Part shown: one piece after another, positions 1,417-61,903 of the stretch | Layout of the letters: each line of letters opens with the position of its first letter | How positions within the stretch are numbered: position 1 is the first letter of the stretch | From: an uncultured Clostridia bacterium | Lineage (GTDB): Bacteria; Bacillota; Clostridia; Oscillospirales; CAG-272 | NCBI GenBank assembly: GCA_944393415.1 | Contig: CALYAD010000012.1 | Coordinates: 1 to 64,000, forward strand | Reading direction: 5' to 3' | DNA length: 64,000 nt | Position numbers and translations under genes: made by a program | The notes under the pieces: model-generated | The model's input: the letters and a program-made list of their open reading frames with translations, nothing else | What the model was told of the DNA's origin: nothing | Databases searched by the model: none

Positions 1417-2759
1417 TTATTTAACCCTATACTTTATATCAAAGTATGGGGGTGCATACGTATTGTCGGTAGAAGCAAAAACGGCATACCCGGAGGTTTC
1501 ATCTTTTATTTTGAAAACTATCGAGTTATCTATCAGCCTGTCATAATCGTCGTCTATCAGCTCTTTTACATAATCAGTCAGATCTATACTGTACCAGCCG
1601 GATTCAGTAATTGTAAACTCACCTATCTGCTTTTTAAAGTCCGGCTTGTTTTTCCAGCTTAACGTCCAGCTGCACCAATCTCCCGGAACCTTGTATACCT
1701 CAATAGTCGTCTCTCCCTTAACATCCATTGCATACATATTAAGCACCACTGAATCGACCAGACTTGATTTTGGTGGAGTATATGATCTGAGGTTGAATTT
1801 CATATATGTATAGCATCCGTCGTCACTACCGGACGTATCGAATATGCTTATATTGCTGAAAAGTGAATTTACTCCTGAAGTATTCTGATACGCCGAGGTA
1901 TCAAAGAACATTTTCTCAGTGTAATAATCCAGGTGAAAGGCGAGTTTTCTGCATTCAATATTATCCGGTATGTCTGCAACCAGATATATTCCATCCCCCT
2001 CCCTTTTTATCTGTATCTCATTCAGCACATGAAGTTTGGCTTCTGTGTCAGCAATTATCGGACGGTGTACTATCGCTTTTTCAACTTCATCCTTCTCCAG
2101 CATGACATAACCGGCGTCTTCGTTTTCATAATCCAAATCGCCTATATCTATTTTGCATTTGAACTGTTTTACCGAATTATCTATATTATATTCAAAAAGC
2201 AGTCCGCTGTACGTCAGAGTAACATACAATGAGATATCCGTTCCCTGCACATATCTCACGCTTTTTTAGCTTCACTATAAACATTAATATAATCTTCCGA
2301 AAGTGAACACCCTGGGCTGCCGCTTATATCAAACGTTATTTGAGTACCTCCGTTTTGCGAAAGCCGTATGCTATTTGAATAAAAATCCGAACTGTAGTTT
2401 GCATTATATACCGAATAGCCATAATCGGATTTTTCTATATTTATATCGCAGTATATATATTCATTATCCACTGACTTACGTACAGGATTAGCAAATATAT
2501 ATGAATGTCTGTTGTTTTCGTCTTTATACAGTATACTGTACTTTGTGGAAACCTCAGGAACATCGTTATCTTTTGACAGTATACTCTTTATTATTTCTTC
2601 AGTTGAGGTGTAGTTATTTTGATTATCCACAAGCAAATTTTTGTTATTCCGTTGAAGCTTGTCCTCATTTAAAAATATTATCACAGCTCTGAATATCATA
2701 CAAATGACTACTACTAAAACGGAAACAACAATTATCTTCTTCTTTTCTTTTATATTCAT
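1417..2759 (-). pseudogene. Membrane-anchored DNRLRE-domain protein, split by a frameshift
   Basis: Two adjacent ORFs read as one broken gene. The upstream part (2256-2759, 167 aa) has an N-terminal membrane segment (IIVVSVLVVVICMIFRAVII) and an extracellular region. The downstream part (1417-2259, 280 aa, GTG start overlapping the previous stop) ends in a DNRLRE-type beta domain with the usual W-S..TLSWKNKP and YSIDLTDYV pattern. The break lies in an A6 run (plus-strand T run at 2262-2267). Adding one A joins the frames as EAKKSVRYVQGTDIS, which gives a continuous protein of about 447 aa. The joined protein resembles the N-terminal part of wall-associated (WapA/YD-repeat) proteins, ending right after the DNRLRE domain. 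It could be a true mutation, a phase-variable tract or an assembly error. SD AGGAG precedes the ATG and belongs to the structured repeat upstream. Confidence 0.7.
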
Positions 2760-2952
2760 TTTAATCTCCTATGTCGCCTCAGGTGACAAAAAACGTTTTA
2801 ATCAGTTTTTAATAGACGTGAAAAATTTTCGTGTTTTGCAAAGCAAAACAAAAAGCGTCCAGCTTTTTAGAAAATTTATGCGTGAAACCAGCCGCATTCC
2901 GATGCGATGTAATATATTTTTCACGCTAATCTCCTATGTCGCCTCAGGCGAC
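2760..2952 (-). repeat. Structured 5'-leader repeat, copy E1, with hairpin-SD ends
   Basis: Read on the minus strand, this element begins AGCGTGAAA and returns TTTCACGC (outer stem). It continues through AAATTTTCTAAAAAGC and GCTTTTTG segments and GCAAAACACGAAAATTTTTCA, and ends in the hairpin GTCACCTGAGGCGAC followed by ATAGGAGATTAAA and the ATG at 2759. The same hairpin plus SD (GTCGCCTGAGGCGAC, 2938-2952) also lies just before its 5' end, as if a tail of another copy abuts it. Homologous copies lie at 12808-12951, 16937-17079 and 59634-59782. Confidence 0.75.
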
Positions 2953-2959
2953 TCAAACG

Positions 2960-4011
2960 CTATGATTTTAACAGTAATTTTTCAGCTCTGCTTTCACACG
3001 CAAACCAATCACGAAAATCCATATCGTAATACAGAGTGCATTTTTCCTGTGGATTTACTATTTCCTTCATAAATCCTGTATCCTCCGGGCGTATCATATT
3101 TTTAAAATTCTCAAAACCGACAATTTCATTAAGCCTCGGAAAAATAACGAAAGAGTTTTCAAAAGTATAATAGCATGGCTTTTCAAGACCAAGCTCTTTT
3201 ATCTTGAGGCTCAGCTTTTCAAAAAATCTGAAGACGCGAATTTGCGCAGAAATACGTTGATATCGCTGAATTTATACAGCATCAGATCCCTTTGAGTTTT
3301 GACCCAATTATATGTAGTGGCTTCCTTATACAAATGACAGCATAAATGAATAAGAAATTCAGTACTGTCTAACGTATAAAAATATGCATCTCCCACCGGA
3401 ATTTTTATTGAATGGTTAAGGAGTTCAGATACTATGCCACTATCCTCCGACGGTTTATAATCAACCGAAAAATTAATGTCCACTTCAAGCATATTCCCGG
3501 AAATGAGCTTTATAAACGGTATAGTTTCTCCATAATTCATTCTTGAATTGATAATCTCCTTACGTGAAGCCGGAATAATAACGTTATTTATTAAGTCGTA
3601 TTTTCCCTGAACAAATCCGTTGTTTTTAAGGAGCTCCTGAAGCTCAGTTATATCATCTTTATTTATAAGTATATCTATATCATTTGACGTCCTGTGTCCT
3701 TTCTTATACAGCTGAGTTGTCAGAAAAGCCCCTTTAAGCAGAGCATATTTGAATTTGCATCCGGAAAGCAACCGAGACAGATAAACAAGATTAGCGCAAA
3801 AAATTTCAGTATCTTGAATATTTTTTTCGTATAGTGAAATAAAGGCTTTTCTTAGCTCTTTATTATTAAAAGTATCTATAATTTTATCGTATGCGATACC
3901 GACTATCTTATTTTTGATTATTCCGCAAAAAAGTTTATCCAAATCCATTTCATAATCAGCGAGGTTGATTTTTTCATCTGACATTTCATCCGAAAGTTTA
4001 TATAATAGCAT
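2960..4011 (-). pseudogene. Nucleotidyltransferase-family protein (PF14907-like), frameshifted
   Basis: The N-terminal 266 or so residues carry the family signature KYALLKGAFLTTQLYKKGHR then TSNDIDILI, with G-A-F and DID as the likely nucleotide/metal site. The frame stops at 3211. One more base in the homopolymer at 3217-3222 (A6 on the plus strand) would restore the frame to FFEKLSLKIKELGLEKP and onward to a stop at 2960, giving about 350 aa, the family's usual size. I chose ATG 4011 because GGAG lies 6 nt before it; ATG 4023 is also in frame. A hairpin (4027-4039) sits just before the SD. It lies downstream of a thymidylate-kinase-like gene. Substrate unknown. Confidence 0.7.
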
Positions 4012-12768: not shown

Positions 12769-12807
12769 ATTAATGATATGAGGGCTATTTTGTAAATATT
12801 TATAATA

Positions 12808-12951
12808 ATCCCCCATGCTGCCCAAGGCAGCACAAATAGGCATGAAAAATTTTCGGGCTTCGCTTTGCGAAGCAAAAAGCGTTTAGCTTTTTAGAAAATT
12901 TGGGCGTGAAACTATCTGCATTTTGTTGCGATCAGATTGATCTTTCACGCT
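12808..12951 (-). repeat. Structured leader repeat, copy E2 (no gene attached)
   Basis: On the minus strand it reads AGCGTGAAAG ... TTTCACGC, CAAATTTTCTAAAAAGC, GCTTTTTGCTTCG, CAAAGCGAAG, CCCGAAAATTTTTCATGCC, then hairpin GCTGCCTTGGGCAGC (12817-12831) and ATGGGGGATTATT. It is nearly identical to copy E3 at 59634-59782 over its whole length. Unlike the other copies no start codon follows the SD-like GGGGG, so it is an orphan copy. Confidence 0.75.
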
Positions 12952-13104
12952 AACTCTCTAGATATGATTGCACCGGATAAAGCTGAACGCAGCGGCGAGT
13001 ATATATAAATATACGAGCTTGTTTTACTGCCTCCCCTAAAACGGATGCCTGAAATAATACCAACTCTATACAAAAAAGTACCATGGAATTTTGTACATAA
13101 ACTG

Positions 13105-16736: not shown

Positions 16737-16936
16737 GTTATAAAACGATCAAACAGTACTTTTCTGCGCGAAATCCAGCAGCTTGGCAGAAAAGCCTTGG
16801 CCCCGCACATCTCAAGGAATTTATTACAAGAACATTATGTTATCCATTCGCATAATATATCTTTAGAAATGTGCGGAAATATAAATTTACAGCAGGAAAG
16901 TAAACTTCCGCGTAACACGGAAGCGTTAAGGATTTT

Positions 16937-17079
16937 AGCGTGAAGGAAGATTACATCACGTCAAAATACAGATGACTTCACGCTTAAATTCTCTCAAAAG
17001 CCGATCGCTTTTGTATATGCAAAACACGAATATTTGTCATATTTATTTGAGCCGCCTTCGGGCGGCATGGAGGATTATC
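16937..17079 (+). repeat. Structured leader repeat, copy E4, 5' UTR of the SOD-like gene
   Basis: AGCGTGAAG ... CTTCACGCTTAAATTCTCT, CAAAAGCCGATCGCTTTTG, ATGCAAAACACGAATATTTG follow the same order as copies E1-E3. It ends in hairpin GCCGCC-TTCG-GGCGGC (17051-17066), then AT, SD GGAGG (17069-17073), ATTATC and the ATG at 17080. It is more diverged in sequence than E2/E3 but the stems are kept, including CATC/GATG inside the first stem. This copy is on the opposite strand to the others. Confidence 0.7.
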
Positions 17080-17616
17080 ATGCAAAACAACCCAAACTTT
17101 ATATCTTCACTACCGCCCCTGATCTCGGTTTTGCGCGGCAGACCTCAGGCATACGCTTACATAGAGGGAGATACCGTAAATTATCCTGAGCTTCTCGGGG
17201 CAGCGCGCTTTTATCAAACAAGATCGGGTGTGATCGTTTTTACAGAAGTAAGAGGTCTGCCAATTGCCGAAACCGACTGTAACGCTCCTGTATTTGGATT
17301 TCATATACATGAGGGTACCTCCTGCGGCGGAAGTATGAACGATCCGTTTTCGGCGTCAATGTCACATTATAACCCCAATAATTGCCCTCATCCTTATCAT
17401 TCCGGAGACCTTCCGCCGTTATTCGGCAACAACGGTTTCGCGGTAAGCCTGGTACTTACAGACCGCTTTAATGTTGATGAAATCATAGGAAAAACAATAA
17501 TTATTCATGACCGACCGGACGACTTCAGCACACAGCCGTCCGGAAACTCAGGTACAAAGATTGCCTGCGGAATCATAAAAGCCAACTACAGGCTACCGCG
17601 TTCCTATCAGCGTTAA
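17080..17616 (+). CDS. Cu/Zn superoxide dismutase-family protein
   Basis: This 178-aa protein keeps the complete metal ligand set: GFHIHEG (two Cu histidines), SMSHYNPN (bridging His), CPHPYHSGDLPP (Zn His, His and Asp), and TIIIHDRPDD (Cu His). The active-site Arg before the ACG motif is Lys here (GNSGTKIACGII). A Cys pair that could form the usual disulfide is present (SCGG and IACG). No signal peptide, so it would act in the cytosol, unlike typical secreted SodC. It would convert superoxide to oxygen and peroxide if active; the Arg to Lys change may lower the rate. ATG 17080 is chosen for its GGAGG SD; the longer in-frame ORF upstream covers the repeat. Its stop overlaps the convergent DUF1848 gene by 4 bp. 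Confidence 0.8.
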   Translation: MQNNPNFISSLPPLISVLRGRPQAYAYIEGDTVNYPELLGAARFYQTRSGVIVFTEVRGLPIAETDCNAPVFGFHIHEGTSCGGSMNDPFSASMSHYNPNNCPHPYHSGDLPPLFGNNGFAVSLVLTDRFNVDEIIGKTIIIHDRPDDFSTQPSGNSGTKIACGIIKANYRLPRSYQR

Positions 17617-50662: not shown

Positions 50663-50707
50663 AAAATCAAAAAGGGCGCACCTATTCCGTTATAAAATAA
50701 GTGGCCC
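50663..50707 (-). terminator. Expression-platform terminator of the ZTP riboswitch
   Basis: On the minus strand GGGC-CACTTATT pairs with AATAGGTG-C-GCCC (one bulge, one G-T pair) and is followed by TTTTTGATTTT. The 5' arm is the conserved CUGGGCC end of the riboswitch, so ligand binding and termination exclude each other. Confidence 0.75.
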
Positions 50708-50795
50708 AGACGGTCGGCGTTCGGAGCATATGCTCAGGCAGTATAATCTCTGCTCCCCCGTGGTAGACCCACTTATCCGTCAGTTGCAGAAACCT
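50701..50795 (-). ncRNA. ZTP (pfl) riboswitch controlling the purine operon
   Basis: On the minus strand the conserved parts of the ZTP/pfl motif appear in order: CAACTGACGGATAA, the hairpin GTGGG-TCTA-CCAC, GGGGGAGC, and after a variable stem (GAGCATATGCTC) the 3' half CCGACCGTCTGGGCC. Compare the well-studied pattern ACUGGCG ... GGUGGGAAACCACC-GGGGAGC ... CCGCCUGGGC. Riboswitches of this class sense ZMP/ZTP, which build up when 10-formyl-tetrahydrofolate is short, and turn on purine and folate genes. The location before purE and the overlapping terminator fit. Confidence 0.9.
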
Positions 50796-50825
50796 TGTAT
50801 ATTACATTTGATTTATAATACTATT

Positions 50826-55310: not shown

Positions 55311-55387
55311 ACATATAGAGCGTTCATAACAGCTTGTGTAACGCAGGTAGTACGGTTTTCGGTCTTCTGTTTCACCTTTGCCTCATT

Positions 55388-55455
55388 GTCAAATCGACTC
55401 CGAATGCACGGCGTCGATTTGACAGGAGCAAGCCGCACAAAACGCCGATTCGGCG
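55388..55455 (+). promoter_or_regulatory. Two leader hairpins, the second joined to the SD
   Basis: GTCAAATCGAC and GTCGATTTGAC (55388-55423) form a perfect 11-bp stem. CGCCGATTCGGCG (55443-55455) then stands directly before TAAGAAAGGAATGG and the ATG, the same hairpin-plus-SD layout as in the E-type repeats. Confidence 0.5.
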
Positions 55456-55477
55456 TAAGAAAGGAATGGTCATAGAT

Positions 55478-56992
55478 ATGAAAGTATTGAAAAAAATCTT
55501 GTTTTTTGCGCTTTTCTGTTGTTTTGTCTGTGTATTTTTCGCCTGTAAAAATAATGACAAAAACGAAAATACTGATAAATATGTCAAAGAGCTTGAGTAT
55601 ACTTTAAGCCATGACGGAACATATTATATCGTAAGCGACATAGGCACATACAACGATACCCTGATTAACATTCCGAGAACATATAACGGTAAGCCGGTTA
55701 CTTCTATTGACCGCAGCGCGTTCCAAGGCTGCGAAAGCCTCACAAGCATCACTATTCCTGACAGCATTACTTTTATCGGCGACAACGCGTTCAGCGGCTG
55801 CGAAAGCCTCAAAAGCATCACTATTCCTGACAGCGTTACTTCTATTGGCGATAGGGTGTTTTATGAGTGCACAAATCTTACAAGCGTTAAGCTTTCCGGC
55901 AGTGTTACTTCTATTGGTGATTCCATGTTTTATGAGTGCACAAATCTTACAAGCATTACTATTCCTGACAGCGTTACTTATATTGACAGCGACGCGTTCA
56001 GCTGCTGCGATAGCCTCAAAAGTATCACTATTCCTGACAGCGTTACTTCTATTGGCAATGATGCTTTCTCTAGCTGCGATAGCCTCAAAAGCATCACTAT
56101 TCCTGACAGCGTTACTTCTATGGGAAACAGTATATTCGAGTGGTGCAAAAGCCTTACAAGCGTTACTATTCCTGACAGCGTTACTTCTGTTGGCAAATCC
56201 GCGTTCGCCTACTGCGAAAGCCTCACAAGCGTCACCATTCCTGACAGCGTTACTTCTATTGGCATCTGGGCGTTCCAAGGGTGCGGAAAGCTTACAAGCA
56301 TTATTATCCCAAACAGCGTTACTTACATTGGCGATTGGGCGTTCGATGGCTGCGACAGTCTATCTGAAATTACTGTAGCGGAAAATAATAGCGCATACAA
56401 AACAGTAGAAGACAGCTTATACACTAAGGACGGAAAAATTTTGGTAAAGTATGCCATCGGTAAAACAAATACAGACTTTACTGTTCCCGACGGCGTTACT
56501 ACCATTTGCAGCGGCGCGTTCCAAAACTGCACCAGCCTTACAAGCATTACTATTCCCGACAGCGTCACTTCCATTAGTAGCGATGCGTTCGATGGCTGCG
56601 GCAGCCTATCTAAAATTATTGTAGCAGAAAACAACAGTGTGTACAAATCAATAGATGACAGCTTATACACTAAAGACGGAAAAACTTTGGTAAAGTATGC
56701 CATCGGTAAAACAAATACAGGCTTTACTATTCCCGACAGCGTTACTACCATTTGCAATTCCGCGTTTTCTTTCTGCAGCAGCCTTACAAGCGTTACTATT
56801 CCTGACAGCGTTACTTACATTGGCGATTATGCGTTCTATAACTGTCACAACCTTGAAAGCGTTACGTTTAACGTCACAGAAAACTGGAAATGCGGTTCAA
56901 CCTCGCTTTCCTCACATGACCTCGCCGATCCCTCGACCGCCGCAGAGTTCTTAAAAATGTCTTACTTCGGGATGATATGGAGAAATGGCTGA
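55478..56992 (+). CDS. BspA-type leucine-rich-repeat lipoprotein
   Basis: This 504-aa protein starts MKVLKKILFFALFCCFVCVF then FACKNND, a lipoprotein signal with Cys after FFA, so it should be anchored on the outer face of the membrane. About 14 LRR_5 repeats follow, each near 23 residues of the form SLTSITIPDSVTSIGDNAF(S)GC. Two longer interruptions (SLYTKDGKILVKYAIGKTNT type) are almost identical to each other. BspA-type proteins bind host or cell-surface ligands. The repeats are so similar at the DNA level that repeat number could change by recombination. ATG 55478 was chosen for its lipoprotein signal and AAAGGA SD; the frame is open further upstream. Confidence 0.85.
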   Translation: MKVLKKILFFALFCCFVCVFFACKNNDKNENTDKYVKELEYTLSHDGTYYIVSDIGTYNDTLINIPRTYNGKPVTSIDRSAFQGCESLTSITIPDSITFIGDNAFSGCESLKSITIPDSVTSIGDRVFYECTNLTSVKLSGSVTSIGDSMFYECTNLTSITIPDSVTYIDSDAFSCCDSLKSITIPDSVTSIGNDAFSSCDSLKSITIPDSVTSMGNSIFEWCKSLTSVTIPDSVTSVGKSAFAYCESLTSVTIPDSVTSIGIWAFQGCGKLTSIIIPNSVTYIGDWAFDGCDSLSEITVAENNSAYKTVEDSLYTKDGKILVKYAIGKTNTDFTVPDGVTTICSGAFQNCTSLTSITIPDSVTSISSDAFDGCGSLSKIIVAENNSVYKSIDDSLYTKDGKTLVKYAIGKTNTGFTIPDSVTTICNSAFSFCSSLTSVTIPDSVTYIGDYAFYNCHNLESVTFNVTENWKCGSTSLSSHDLADPSTAAEFLKMSYFGMIWRNG

Positions 56993-58640: not shown

Positions 58641-59633
58641 TTAGTTTTTCTTTTCCATTTCTCCGAGCGCGCGCAGTATCTGACCCCGATATCCCTGTAC
58701 AACTTCCTCCGGTGAGAGGATTTCAAGCGCCCCGTCAAAACCAAAGACCCATCCGTAAAAGCGTACGCTTACCTCGACACGAGCGTAAAACTCAAAATAA
58801 CCGTCGTATTCCTTGATCACAAGCTCCTTACCGAATCGGTCAAACATAGCTCCGGCAAGTCGGTTTTCACATCTGAAGCGTACATTATACTCCTCGCCTC
58901 TGAACATTTCAAAAACGGTACTGCAGTAGCTTGCCAAAGAAACCTTTGAAAATTCCTCCTTTCCCAGCCTCGGGTCTCCGGTACGTCTTATGTTTTCCAT
59001 ACGATCCACACGGTAATGCCGTATGCTCTGCGTAGCGTGATCATAAGCGACAAGATAATAATTTTCCTCTCTCCATATAAGCGCCCACGGGCTCACGGTA
59101 TAAATAGCTCCGCCGTGCTTGGGCACAATCTGCTTTGACGGGGTCGTTTCGGTGTATCTGAAGGTCACGGAGGTGTTTTCGGATATCGCACCGTGAAGAG
59201 CGTCAGTTAGATAAAGCACATTGCTGGATCTCTCATCGGGTCGGTCGTATACATAAACGCTCCTTGAAAGCTGTTTTTCGCCGTAAACGCTGGTAAGCGA
59301 CGAAAGCTTTTTTATAAGGGATTTGCACTGTTTGTTTGATATAAATCGCGACGACTGTACCGCGTCCACCAATATTTTCAGCTCAGCCAGCTCAAAATCC
59401 CGGCTGAGTACGCGAAAACCCCCGTTCCGTCCTTCGGTATTCCCTATATCGAGCAAACCCGAATCCTTCAGCGCTTCTATATCTCTGTAAATACTTTTTC
59501 TTTCCGCTTCGATGCCGTAGGCTCCGAGCTTTTCCTCAAGCTGCCCCGCGCTCAGCGAATGCTCCTCATCTGTTTCTCTTAAAAGTATATCTTTCAGGCG
59601 TAATATTTTTAGCTTTTGATTTTCCCGTTTCAT
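58641..59633 (-). CDS. WYL-domain transcriptional regulator
   Basis: This 330-aa protein has an N-terminal DeoR-type helix-turn-helix (LSAGQLEEKLGAYGIEAERK, SIYRDIEALKDSGLL) followed by a WYL domain (VSPWALIWREENYYLVAYDH ... RHYRVDRMENI). WYL domains sense nucleotides or single-stranded nucleic acid. Targets unknown. Its SD (GGGGGATT) and leader come from repeat copy E3 directly upstream, so its expression should depend on that element. Confidence 0.85.
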   Translation of the reverse strand: MKRENQKLKILRLKDILLRETDEEHSLSAGQLEEKLGAYGIEAERKSIYRDIEALKDSGLLDIGNTEGRNGGFRVLSRDFELAELKILVDAVQSSRFISNKQCKSLIKKLSSLTSVYGEKQLSRSVYVYDRPDERSSNVLYLTDALHGAISENTSVTFRYTETTPSKQIVPKHGGAIYTVSPWALIWREENYYLVAYDHATQSIRHYRVDRMENIRRTGDPRLGKEEFSKVSLASYCSTVFEMFRGEEYNVRFRCENRLAGAMFDRFGKELVIKEYDGYFEFYARVEVSVRFYGWVFGFDGALEILSPEEVVQGYRGQILRALGEMEKKN

Positions 59634-59782
59634 AATAATCCCCCATGCTGCCCAAGGCAGCGCAAAACAGGCATGAAAAATTTTCGGGCTTCGCTTTGCG
59701 AAGCAAAAAGCGTTTAGCTTTTTAGAAAATTTGGGCGTGAAACTATCTGCATTTTGTTGCGATCAGATTGATCTTTCACGCT
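59634..59782 (-). repeat. Structured leader repeat, copy E3, 5' UTR of the WYL regulator
   Basis: On the minus strand AGCGTGAAAG ... TTTCACGCCCAAATTTTCT, AAAAAGCTAAACGCTTTTTG, CTTCGCAAAGCGAAG, CCCGAAAATTTTTCATGCC, then hairpin GCTGCCTTGGGCAGC (59647-59661), ATGGGGGATTATT and ATG 59633. It is nearly identical to E2, 47 kb away, which points to recent duplication or strong conservation. Confidence 0.8.
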
Positions 59783-59895
59783 ATTCTCCATGCTGCCATT
59801 GGCGCCTAAAAACCGTTTTAATCGGTTTTTATAGATACGAAAAATTTCGTGTTTTGCTGTGCAAAAAAATTTATGCTTGAAATGGTTTTTACGCT
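59783..59895 (-). repeat. Degenerate structured repeat, copy E5, in tandem with E3
   Basis: On the minus strand it reads AGCGTAAAAACC, GCATAAATTTTTTTGCACAG, CAAAACACGAAATTTTTCG, AAAAACCGATTAAAACGGTT and an imperfect hairpin (about 59792-59806), then ATGGAGAATAGCGTGAAAG leading into E3. Its first stem is eroded. The tandem order mirrors the extra hairpin-SD before E1. 59896-60063 holds no supported gene. Confidence 0.55.
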
Positions 59896-60063
59896 GCCTC
59901 AGTTTAACTTAACCTTAACGCTAATCACACATACGGCCTTTGCGGATTTTATTAATAAATCCGTCAGAAAATCCAGAAAGCCTGACACGATCAGGTATAA
60001 CCTTCATGTTAATGCATCATGCGTGTACAATCCGCTGTGAAAGAATTGAAACTTTTCTTGCGC

Positions 60064-61514: not shown

Positions 61515-61530
61515 CGCTTGTCGCTATCTC

Positions 61531-61903
61531 GGATGAGCGGACTTATAAGCCGGGTTCTGTAACGGTCAAAAAACCGTCCGCAATTATCTATCTTGACGTC
61601 ATGTCGCCATAACGTTCTTTGCCACCTGCGAAATTCCGTCGGGCAAACGTGGTTTCTATCCCCTTTCGCTTACGGTGTTGCTTCGGATAGGGTTTACAGC
61701 ATACCCCGGTTACCCGGGATACGGGTGAGCTCTTACCTCGCCTTTCCATCCTTACCCGCGTAAGCGGGCGGTATATCTCTGTTGCACTTTCCCGGAGGTC
61801 GCCCTCGGCTGACGTTATCAGTTATCCTGCCCTGTGAAGCCCGGACTTTCCTCATGATAATACCTTTCGGCTTGATATCACGCAATTGCGCCGTCCGCTC
61901 ACC
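61531..61903 (-). ncRNA. rnpB: RNase P RNA (class A)
   Basis: On the minus strand the ends pair (GGTGAGCGGACGG with CCGCTCATCC), and the conserved blocks appear in order: GAGGAAAGTCCGGGC near the 5' side, CAGGGCAGGATAACTG, and near the 3' side AACCCGGCTTATAAGTCCGC, all standard for bacterial RNase P RNA. It is the catalytic part of the enzyme that trims tRNA 5' ends. Length about 370 nt. A consensus promoter (61912-61940) and a terminator bracket it. Confidence 0.95.

Follow-up and report, generated by a model that had tools for sequence, protein, structure and literature searches.

We analysed a 64,000-nucleotide stretch of DNA from an uncultured Clostridia bacterium (contig CALYAD010000012.1, positions 1 to 64,000; hereafter the window) and the structured repeat that it contains, one copy of which adjoins the start codon of a WYL regulator gene. 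The results indicated that the repeat is very probably a non-autonomous mobile element, inserted in sense orientation between the Shine-Dalgarno sequence (SD) and the start codon and carrying an SD of its own, and not a regulon-type RNA. The element has spread in many copies, its fold is conserved, its copies are placed at gene starts, occupied sites have empty counterparts, and its arrays record serial insertion.

In the home genome (G000), at least 149 copies were detected with the covariance model R1, which excludes chance for the window copies, and 60 matches to the element were obtained by blastn. The model R2, built solely from other genomes, gave 146 matches in the home-genome stretches, and the census is therefore independent of the training set. 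The home-genome analysis covered stretches around copies, in a genome that is 97% complete; throughout, the genomes are assemblies of metagenome-assembled genome (MAG) quality, genes are open reading frames (ORFs) rather than curated calls, and E-values from short calibration are rough. The home-genome copies form about 110 arrays, in which the units are placed head to tail and number from one to three or more, and many copies are 96-97% identical. Many copies sit at contig ends of G000 (C3, C48, C52, C56, C61, C66 and C69); the assembly probably breaks at element copies, so that more copies than those counted are probably present.

The placement of the copies was examined at both junctions. 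The start codon of an ORF of at least 50 aa lies exactly at the model end for 63 of the 103 array ends in the home genome, where about 1 would be expected, a random position having such a start codon with probability 0.0092. The copies from other genera stop precisely at a start codon in 95 of 107 cases; the remaining twelve are for the most part inner array units, with a further copy directly after them. Such placement is extreme. To the left of non-tandem copies, a native SD stands at a fixed place, with G in 63% at position −8 and in 76% at −7, T at −2 in 73% and A at −1 in 85%. In consensus, the left junction reads AAGGAGnnTA followed by the element start GCGTGAAA, and the right junction reads GGAGATTA followed by nnATG. 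The element-borne SD keeps a GGAG-6-ATG spacing in 67 of 80 copies from other genera.

Comparison with relatives revealed the sites in their empty state. The congeneric orthologues examined for core genes that carry the element in G000 are without it; at the NuoF-like gene of G006, for instance, the stop of the preceding gene, TGATAGGAGGAAGATAAG and ATG stand in direct succession. Within genus g72, occupied sites of one species could be aligned through the junction with empty sites of its sister species. At glpK (named by reading), the empty site GGTGAAATAATATG corresponds to GGTGAAATA, the element (GCGTG...GGAGAC) and TAATATG, and at rplI the empty site GGAGAACATATTATG corresponds to GGAGAACA, the element (GCGTG...GGAGAT) and TATTATG; further cases include folC (named by reading), glmM, groEL (between groES and groEL) and others. 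The clean cases among these sites fit conservative insertion or a 2-nt TA duplication. A DNA search of the trp and thi operons gave few aligned gene starts. The genes downstream of the element are unrelated: 163 proteins fell into 149 clusters, of which 138 are singletons. Essential genes are among the carriers, and NCBIfam confirmed dnaN, proS, rimO, dapL, rpe, lon, groEL, rplI (L9) and glmM, while rnpA, thiG, thiC, lysA, mutL and coaD were read from N-terminal sequences only.

Analysis of the arrays showed that they are mostly successive insertions. For 26 of the 39 pairs of neighbouring array copies, each member is more closely related to at least five copies elsewhere than to its partner, and tandem arrays combine different subfamilies. 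Among 24 arrays at gene starts, R2 scored the copy next to the gene higher in 21 (sign test, p about 3e-4); the trend for R1 over all arrays is weaker (25 of 39, p=0.11), and upstream copies decay freely. Nesting provided a third kind of evidence: at locus L130 (G000 contig C38, near position 1928, minus strand), an element lies within the SD-ATG spacer of a repeat of a second, sequence-unrelated family, directly after the SD of that repeat, at a junction of AAGAAAGGAATGGTCAT with TAGCGTGAAAG. Tandem duplication as the cause of the arrays was rejected for most pairs, given their closer relatives elsewhere, and kept for a few arrays with a period of 138 nt. Such arrays, of about 138 nt, occur at L022, L125/L028 and L161/L025 (G000 contigs C66, C13 and C6); their inner units end in ...GAACGTCATATGCAAGACA and not in the GC hairpin with SD, and neighbouring units are in many cases closely related, so that some look like true tandem duplications.

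The second repeat family has the same placement (...AACGCnGATTyGGCGTAAGAAAGGAATGGTCATaaATATG). It was seen in the window at approximately 55360-55482 on the plus strand, at L025, L113, L129, L134, L140 and L154 in the home genome, and at L189 and L192 in G004. The home-genome stretches hold 12 distinct copies, most with an ORF start about 11 nt past GGAA, and at L189 the left border likewise follows a native SD, with AAGGGAGGTAATTA joined to GTTTGAAAA.

The element measures about 150 nt in the window and about 110-190 nt across the family. Its sense strand comprises, in order, (T/C)A-GCGTGAAA...TTTCACGC (domain H1), domain H2, a short linker that is often TATTTGTG in other genera, the hairpin H3, ATGGAGGATTA or AATGGAGATTA, two bases and ATG. 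The inner sequence of H1 differs between subfamilies and genera, and H2 is an AT-rich outer stem round two hairpins. In other genera the H2 stems are AATTTTC/GAAAATT, ACTTCACC/GGTGAAGT, CTCCTCG/CGAGGA and others, the sequence having been replaced and the pairing retained. In the cross-genus alignment, which was fitted to the structure, 41 of 45 pairs show two-sided compensatory changes, with 720 such cells against 221 after shuffling and 91.9% of cells paired against 35-49% in slid controls. A MAFFT alignment within the home genome, independent of the structure, had 94.4% of cells paired and 31 compensatory cells against 11.1. The structure was drawn by hand; RNAalifold on the raw alignment gave just 9 pairs because of indels, and support is lowest for the pair of small hairpins within H1, at about 70% paired. 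These data established that the fold is real, in agreement with the sequence-only reading of the window, which had taken stems kept among differing loops as a sign of RNA structure. That reading had also held that its proposal would fall if covariation were missing and placement random with respect to genes, and the opposite was found on both counts. An excess of G-U over A-C (146:74) hints at folding of the sense strand; it was not used as proof, since the model itself favours G-U. No Rfam family covered the window copies at gathering score, and among eight loci searched in Rfam at E up to 1 the sole overlap with the element was a miRNA model scoring 34.3 bits, below its cut-off of 75. No inverted repeat joining the element ends was found in the region 59600-59940, the ends TAGCGTGAAA and ...AATGGAGATTA not being complementary.

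Within the family, the element was found in 39 of 246 genomes (21 of 71 genera), and beyond it in two further families of the order (f10 and f20; genomes G044/G417 and G286/G496). The stem sequences of these relatives, inside and outside the family, are quite different from those of the home-genome copies, and each genome tends to have a subfamily of its own. The distribution within the home genus is patchy, with at least 149 copies in G000, 11 in G004 and none found in G001, G002, G005 and G006. R2 gave no match at E<0.1 in 45 Lachnospiraceae-type loci (L035-L079); no match was found among phage or plasmid records, and none for one exact pattern in viral contigs. At L032 (G015) and L033 (G027), a GC hairpin with a GGGGGATT SD stands at the ATG and the rest of the element is missing, representing either remnants or a leader design common in the family.

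The copies and associated features in the window are as follows.

59631-59783, minus strand: full-length copy, the one nearer the gene in a two-copy array, extending from TAGCGTGAAA up to the WYL regulator's start codon; covariance-model match of 175.5 bits (R1) and 145.9 bits (R2)
59735-59781, minus strand: domain H1 of this copy, outer stem GCGTGAAA/TTTCACGC, inside which lie two small hairpins
59678-59732, minus strand: domain H2 of this copy, outer stem AAATTTTC/GAAAATTT round two hairpins, forming a three-way junction
59647-59661, minus strand: domain H3 of this copy, terminal GC hairpin GCTGCC-TTG-GGCAGC, immediately 5′ of the SD
59640-59644, minus strand: element-borne SD GGGGG, 6 nt 5′ of the ATG
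58641-59633, minus strand: WYL/WCX transcriptional regulator gene, its start codon adjoining the element
59784-59924, minus strand: degenerate copy upstream in this array, the older of its two members (nhmmer E 1.1e-17), the SD-hairpin end directly repeated at a spacing of 145
2757-2928, minus strand: element copy at the ATG of a 167-aa ORF (2256-2759), covariance-model match
2926-3008, minus strand: remnant of an older copy directly upstream of the preceding one, from sequence similarity and direct-repeat comparison
12801-12952, minus strand: young element copy ending at ATTATTATA, without a long ORF directly after it
16936-17082, plus strand: element copy at the ATG (17080) of a Cu/Zn superoxide dismutase-like gene (Sod_Cu), covariance-model match

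The four clear copies described in the sequence-only reading are thus present with borders shifted by a few bases, and its degenerate fifth copy was recovered at 59784-59924. The blocks that it described were right, except that AAATTTTC and GAAAATTT proved to be the two arms of a single stem, round the hairpins AAAAAGC/GCTTTTT and TTTTGC/GCAAAA. Three copies do end at an ATG, and the Sod_Cu and WYL/WCX assignments stood; the copy at 2757, however, adjoins the 167-aa ORF, which has no Pfam match, and the DNRLRE/CBM96-like gene named there is the second gene after the copy, beginning at the stop of that ORF. The relatives obtained for the WYL regulator, from Lachnospiraceae-type MAGs, are just 39-50% identical, which marks it as an accessory gene that is unusable for empty-site comparison. 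The window also contains a ZMP/ZTP riboswitch at 50697-50797 and an RNase P RNA of class A at 61530-61901, both on the minus strand.

In our proposal, a trans-acting enzyme would move the element by recognising an SD-like purine run and a TA/ATG-like context, and recognition of the fold while the element moves may take place on single-stranded RNA or DNA. Insertion in sense orientation into the spacer that separates the SD from the start codon would leave the SD of the element end at the right distance, so that translation could continue from the new site. The carried SD is probably used in translation, which would explain why essential genes tolerate the element, and selection would then retain copies at working gene starts. 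As each insertion would rebuild the target for the next, arrays would come to hold their oldest copies farthest from the gene.

Several observations weigh against this proposal. A long ORF adjoins just 5 of 12 array ends of the youngest subfamily; what is recognised may therefore be a sequence motif. Several of the other ends still finish at ATTAnnATG/A, which suggests recognition of the SD-like purine run and TA/ATG-like context, selection then sorting the survivors; decayed or very small genes would be another possible account of the ends without a long ORF. Some native spacers are 1-4 nt off a strictly conservative insertion, so that the exact borders may involve no duplication or the 2-nt TA, and the empty sites were compared between sister species rather than strains. 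As to the enzyme, Y1_Tnp (PF01797) was not found in the home genome, the sole genome examined for it; reverse transcriptase (PF00078), which a group II intron, retron or other such element would call for, was found in just 2 of 14 carriers tested and not in G000; and IS110 (PF02371), found in G000, G077, G171 and G184, was not found in the carriers G132, G174, G214, G096, G186, G256 and others. None of the three candidate mobilisers tracks the element, Y1 having been assessed in the home genome. A more far-reaching version of our proposal, which we regard as doubtful, is that the insertion machinery recognises translation-initiation regions as such (SD and start codon, perhaps via the transcript or the initiating ribosome), and that at least two sequence-unrelated families sharing this niche in the same bacteria constitute a new mobile class.

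Strong covariation and a constant leader position in sense orientation would also suit a cis-regulatory leader RNA class, riboswitch-like or protein-binding, that controls the genes it precedes. The sequence-only reading had offered such a class beside a small mobile repeat with its own ribosome-binding site. As the main explanation the regulatory class is very unlikely, since the downstream proteins belong to 149 unrelated clusters, congeneric orthologues are without the element, its presence differs between sister species, arrays mix subfamilies and one genome holds at least 149 copies. Empty sites, patchy distribution, copy number, unrelated genes and serial insertion all favour the mobile repeat. 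A mobile element could still have been kept for a shared post-transcriptional function, such as RNase III processing, mRNA stability or response to a global translation regulator, thereby creating a large co-regulated set. About 100 arrays have one folded leader, stems have been retained over long divergence, and older copies sit at gene starts more often than the youngest; the free decay of upstream copies and the differing carriers of sister species nevertheless make this account rather unlikely.

Another account assumes an HUH-type single-strand non-autonomous element (IS200/IS605 or REP-type), with a Y1 transposase acting in trans and the SD-like GGAG as the left cleavage site. The hairpins at both ends, the lack of a clear target duplication and the strand-specific insertion 3′ of a short motif resemble IS200/IS605/REP, but Y1_Tnp was not found in a 97%-complete genome with many nearly identical copies, and a degenerate run of purines, with no single fixed tetranucleotide, makes up the left flank, so that this account seems unlikely. 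An ordinary intergenic miniature inverted-repeat transposable element (MITE) or palindromic repeat, indifferent to gene starts, would match in size and copy number; its probability is negligible in view of start-codon placement far above chance and the absence of any detected terminal inverted repeat.

If the mobile, SD-carrying element is correctly interpreted, some 60-100 genes of a single genome, essential ones included, owe rebuilt ribosome-binding sites to one element, whose relatives have had the same effect across a bacterial order. Translation initiation could then be studied in a natural experiment, a new type of site-specific insertion would call for explanation, and leaders might be put before genes without breaking them; the element would also be a source of erroneous leader and start annotation.

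Compared with riboswitches, the element has a covarying secondary structure and is not consistently linked to orthologous genes or to genes of related function. HEARO/omega RNAs and IS110 bridge RNAs are structured RNAs of similar size linked to transposition; unlike them, the present element has no Rfam match above threshold and is not regularly accompanied by IS110. Prokaryotic MITEs and MITE-like repeats, including Correia/NEMIS, ERIC, RUP, BOX and SPRITE (PMC10969869, PMC3049150), are likewise multicopy, folded, non-autonomous and shorter than 200 bp, and Correia elements, too, are found a short distance upstream of genes. The present element is small, multicopy, non-coding and mobile as they are; it differs in that no terminal inverted repeats, such as would match an insertion sequence, were found, and in its concentration in the SD-start spacer, its own SD and its fold covarying across genera. 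The empty sites show no target-site duplication or at most the 2-nt TA. REP/BIME elements with RAYT (TnpA-REP) and IS200/IS605-derived elements (PMC8266576) share the terminal hairpins, the strand specificity and the lack of a clear target duplication, whereas our element has no GTAG-like tetranucleotide at the hairpin foot (its left end is (T/C)A-GCGTGAAA) and no Y1 transposase was found in its home genome. MRSC-65-2, a candidate from a structured-RNA survey (PMC11109978), is a covarying motif with dozens of copies per genome, sometimes near transposase genes; it forms a single long stem, in contrast to the present element, which has three domains and stands in sense orientation where genes begin. 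The open-access papers searched yielded no precedent, that is, no small mobile repeat defined by insertion between SD and start codon. Neither the terminal inverted repeats of MITEs nor the GTAG-like foot and the Y1 transposase (sought in the home genome) of REPs were found for the element; its broad kind, a small mobile repeat resembling MITEs and REPs, is known, and the placement rule together with the carried ribosome-binding site is new.
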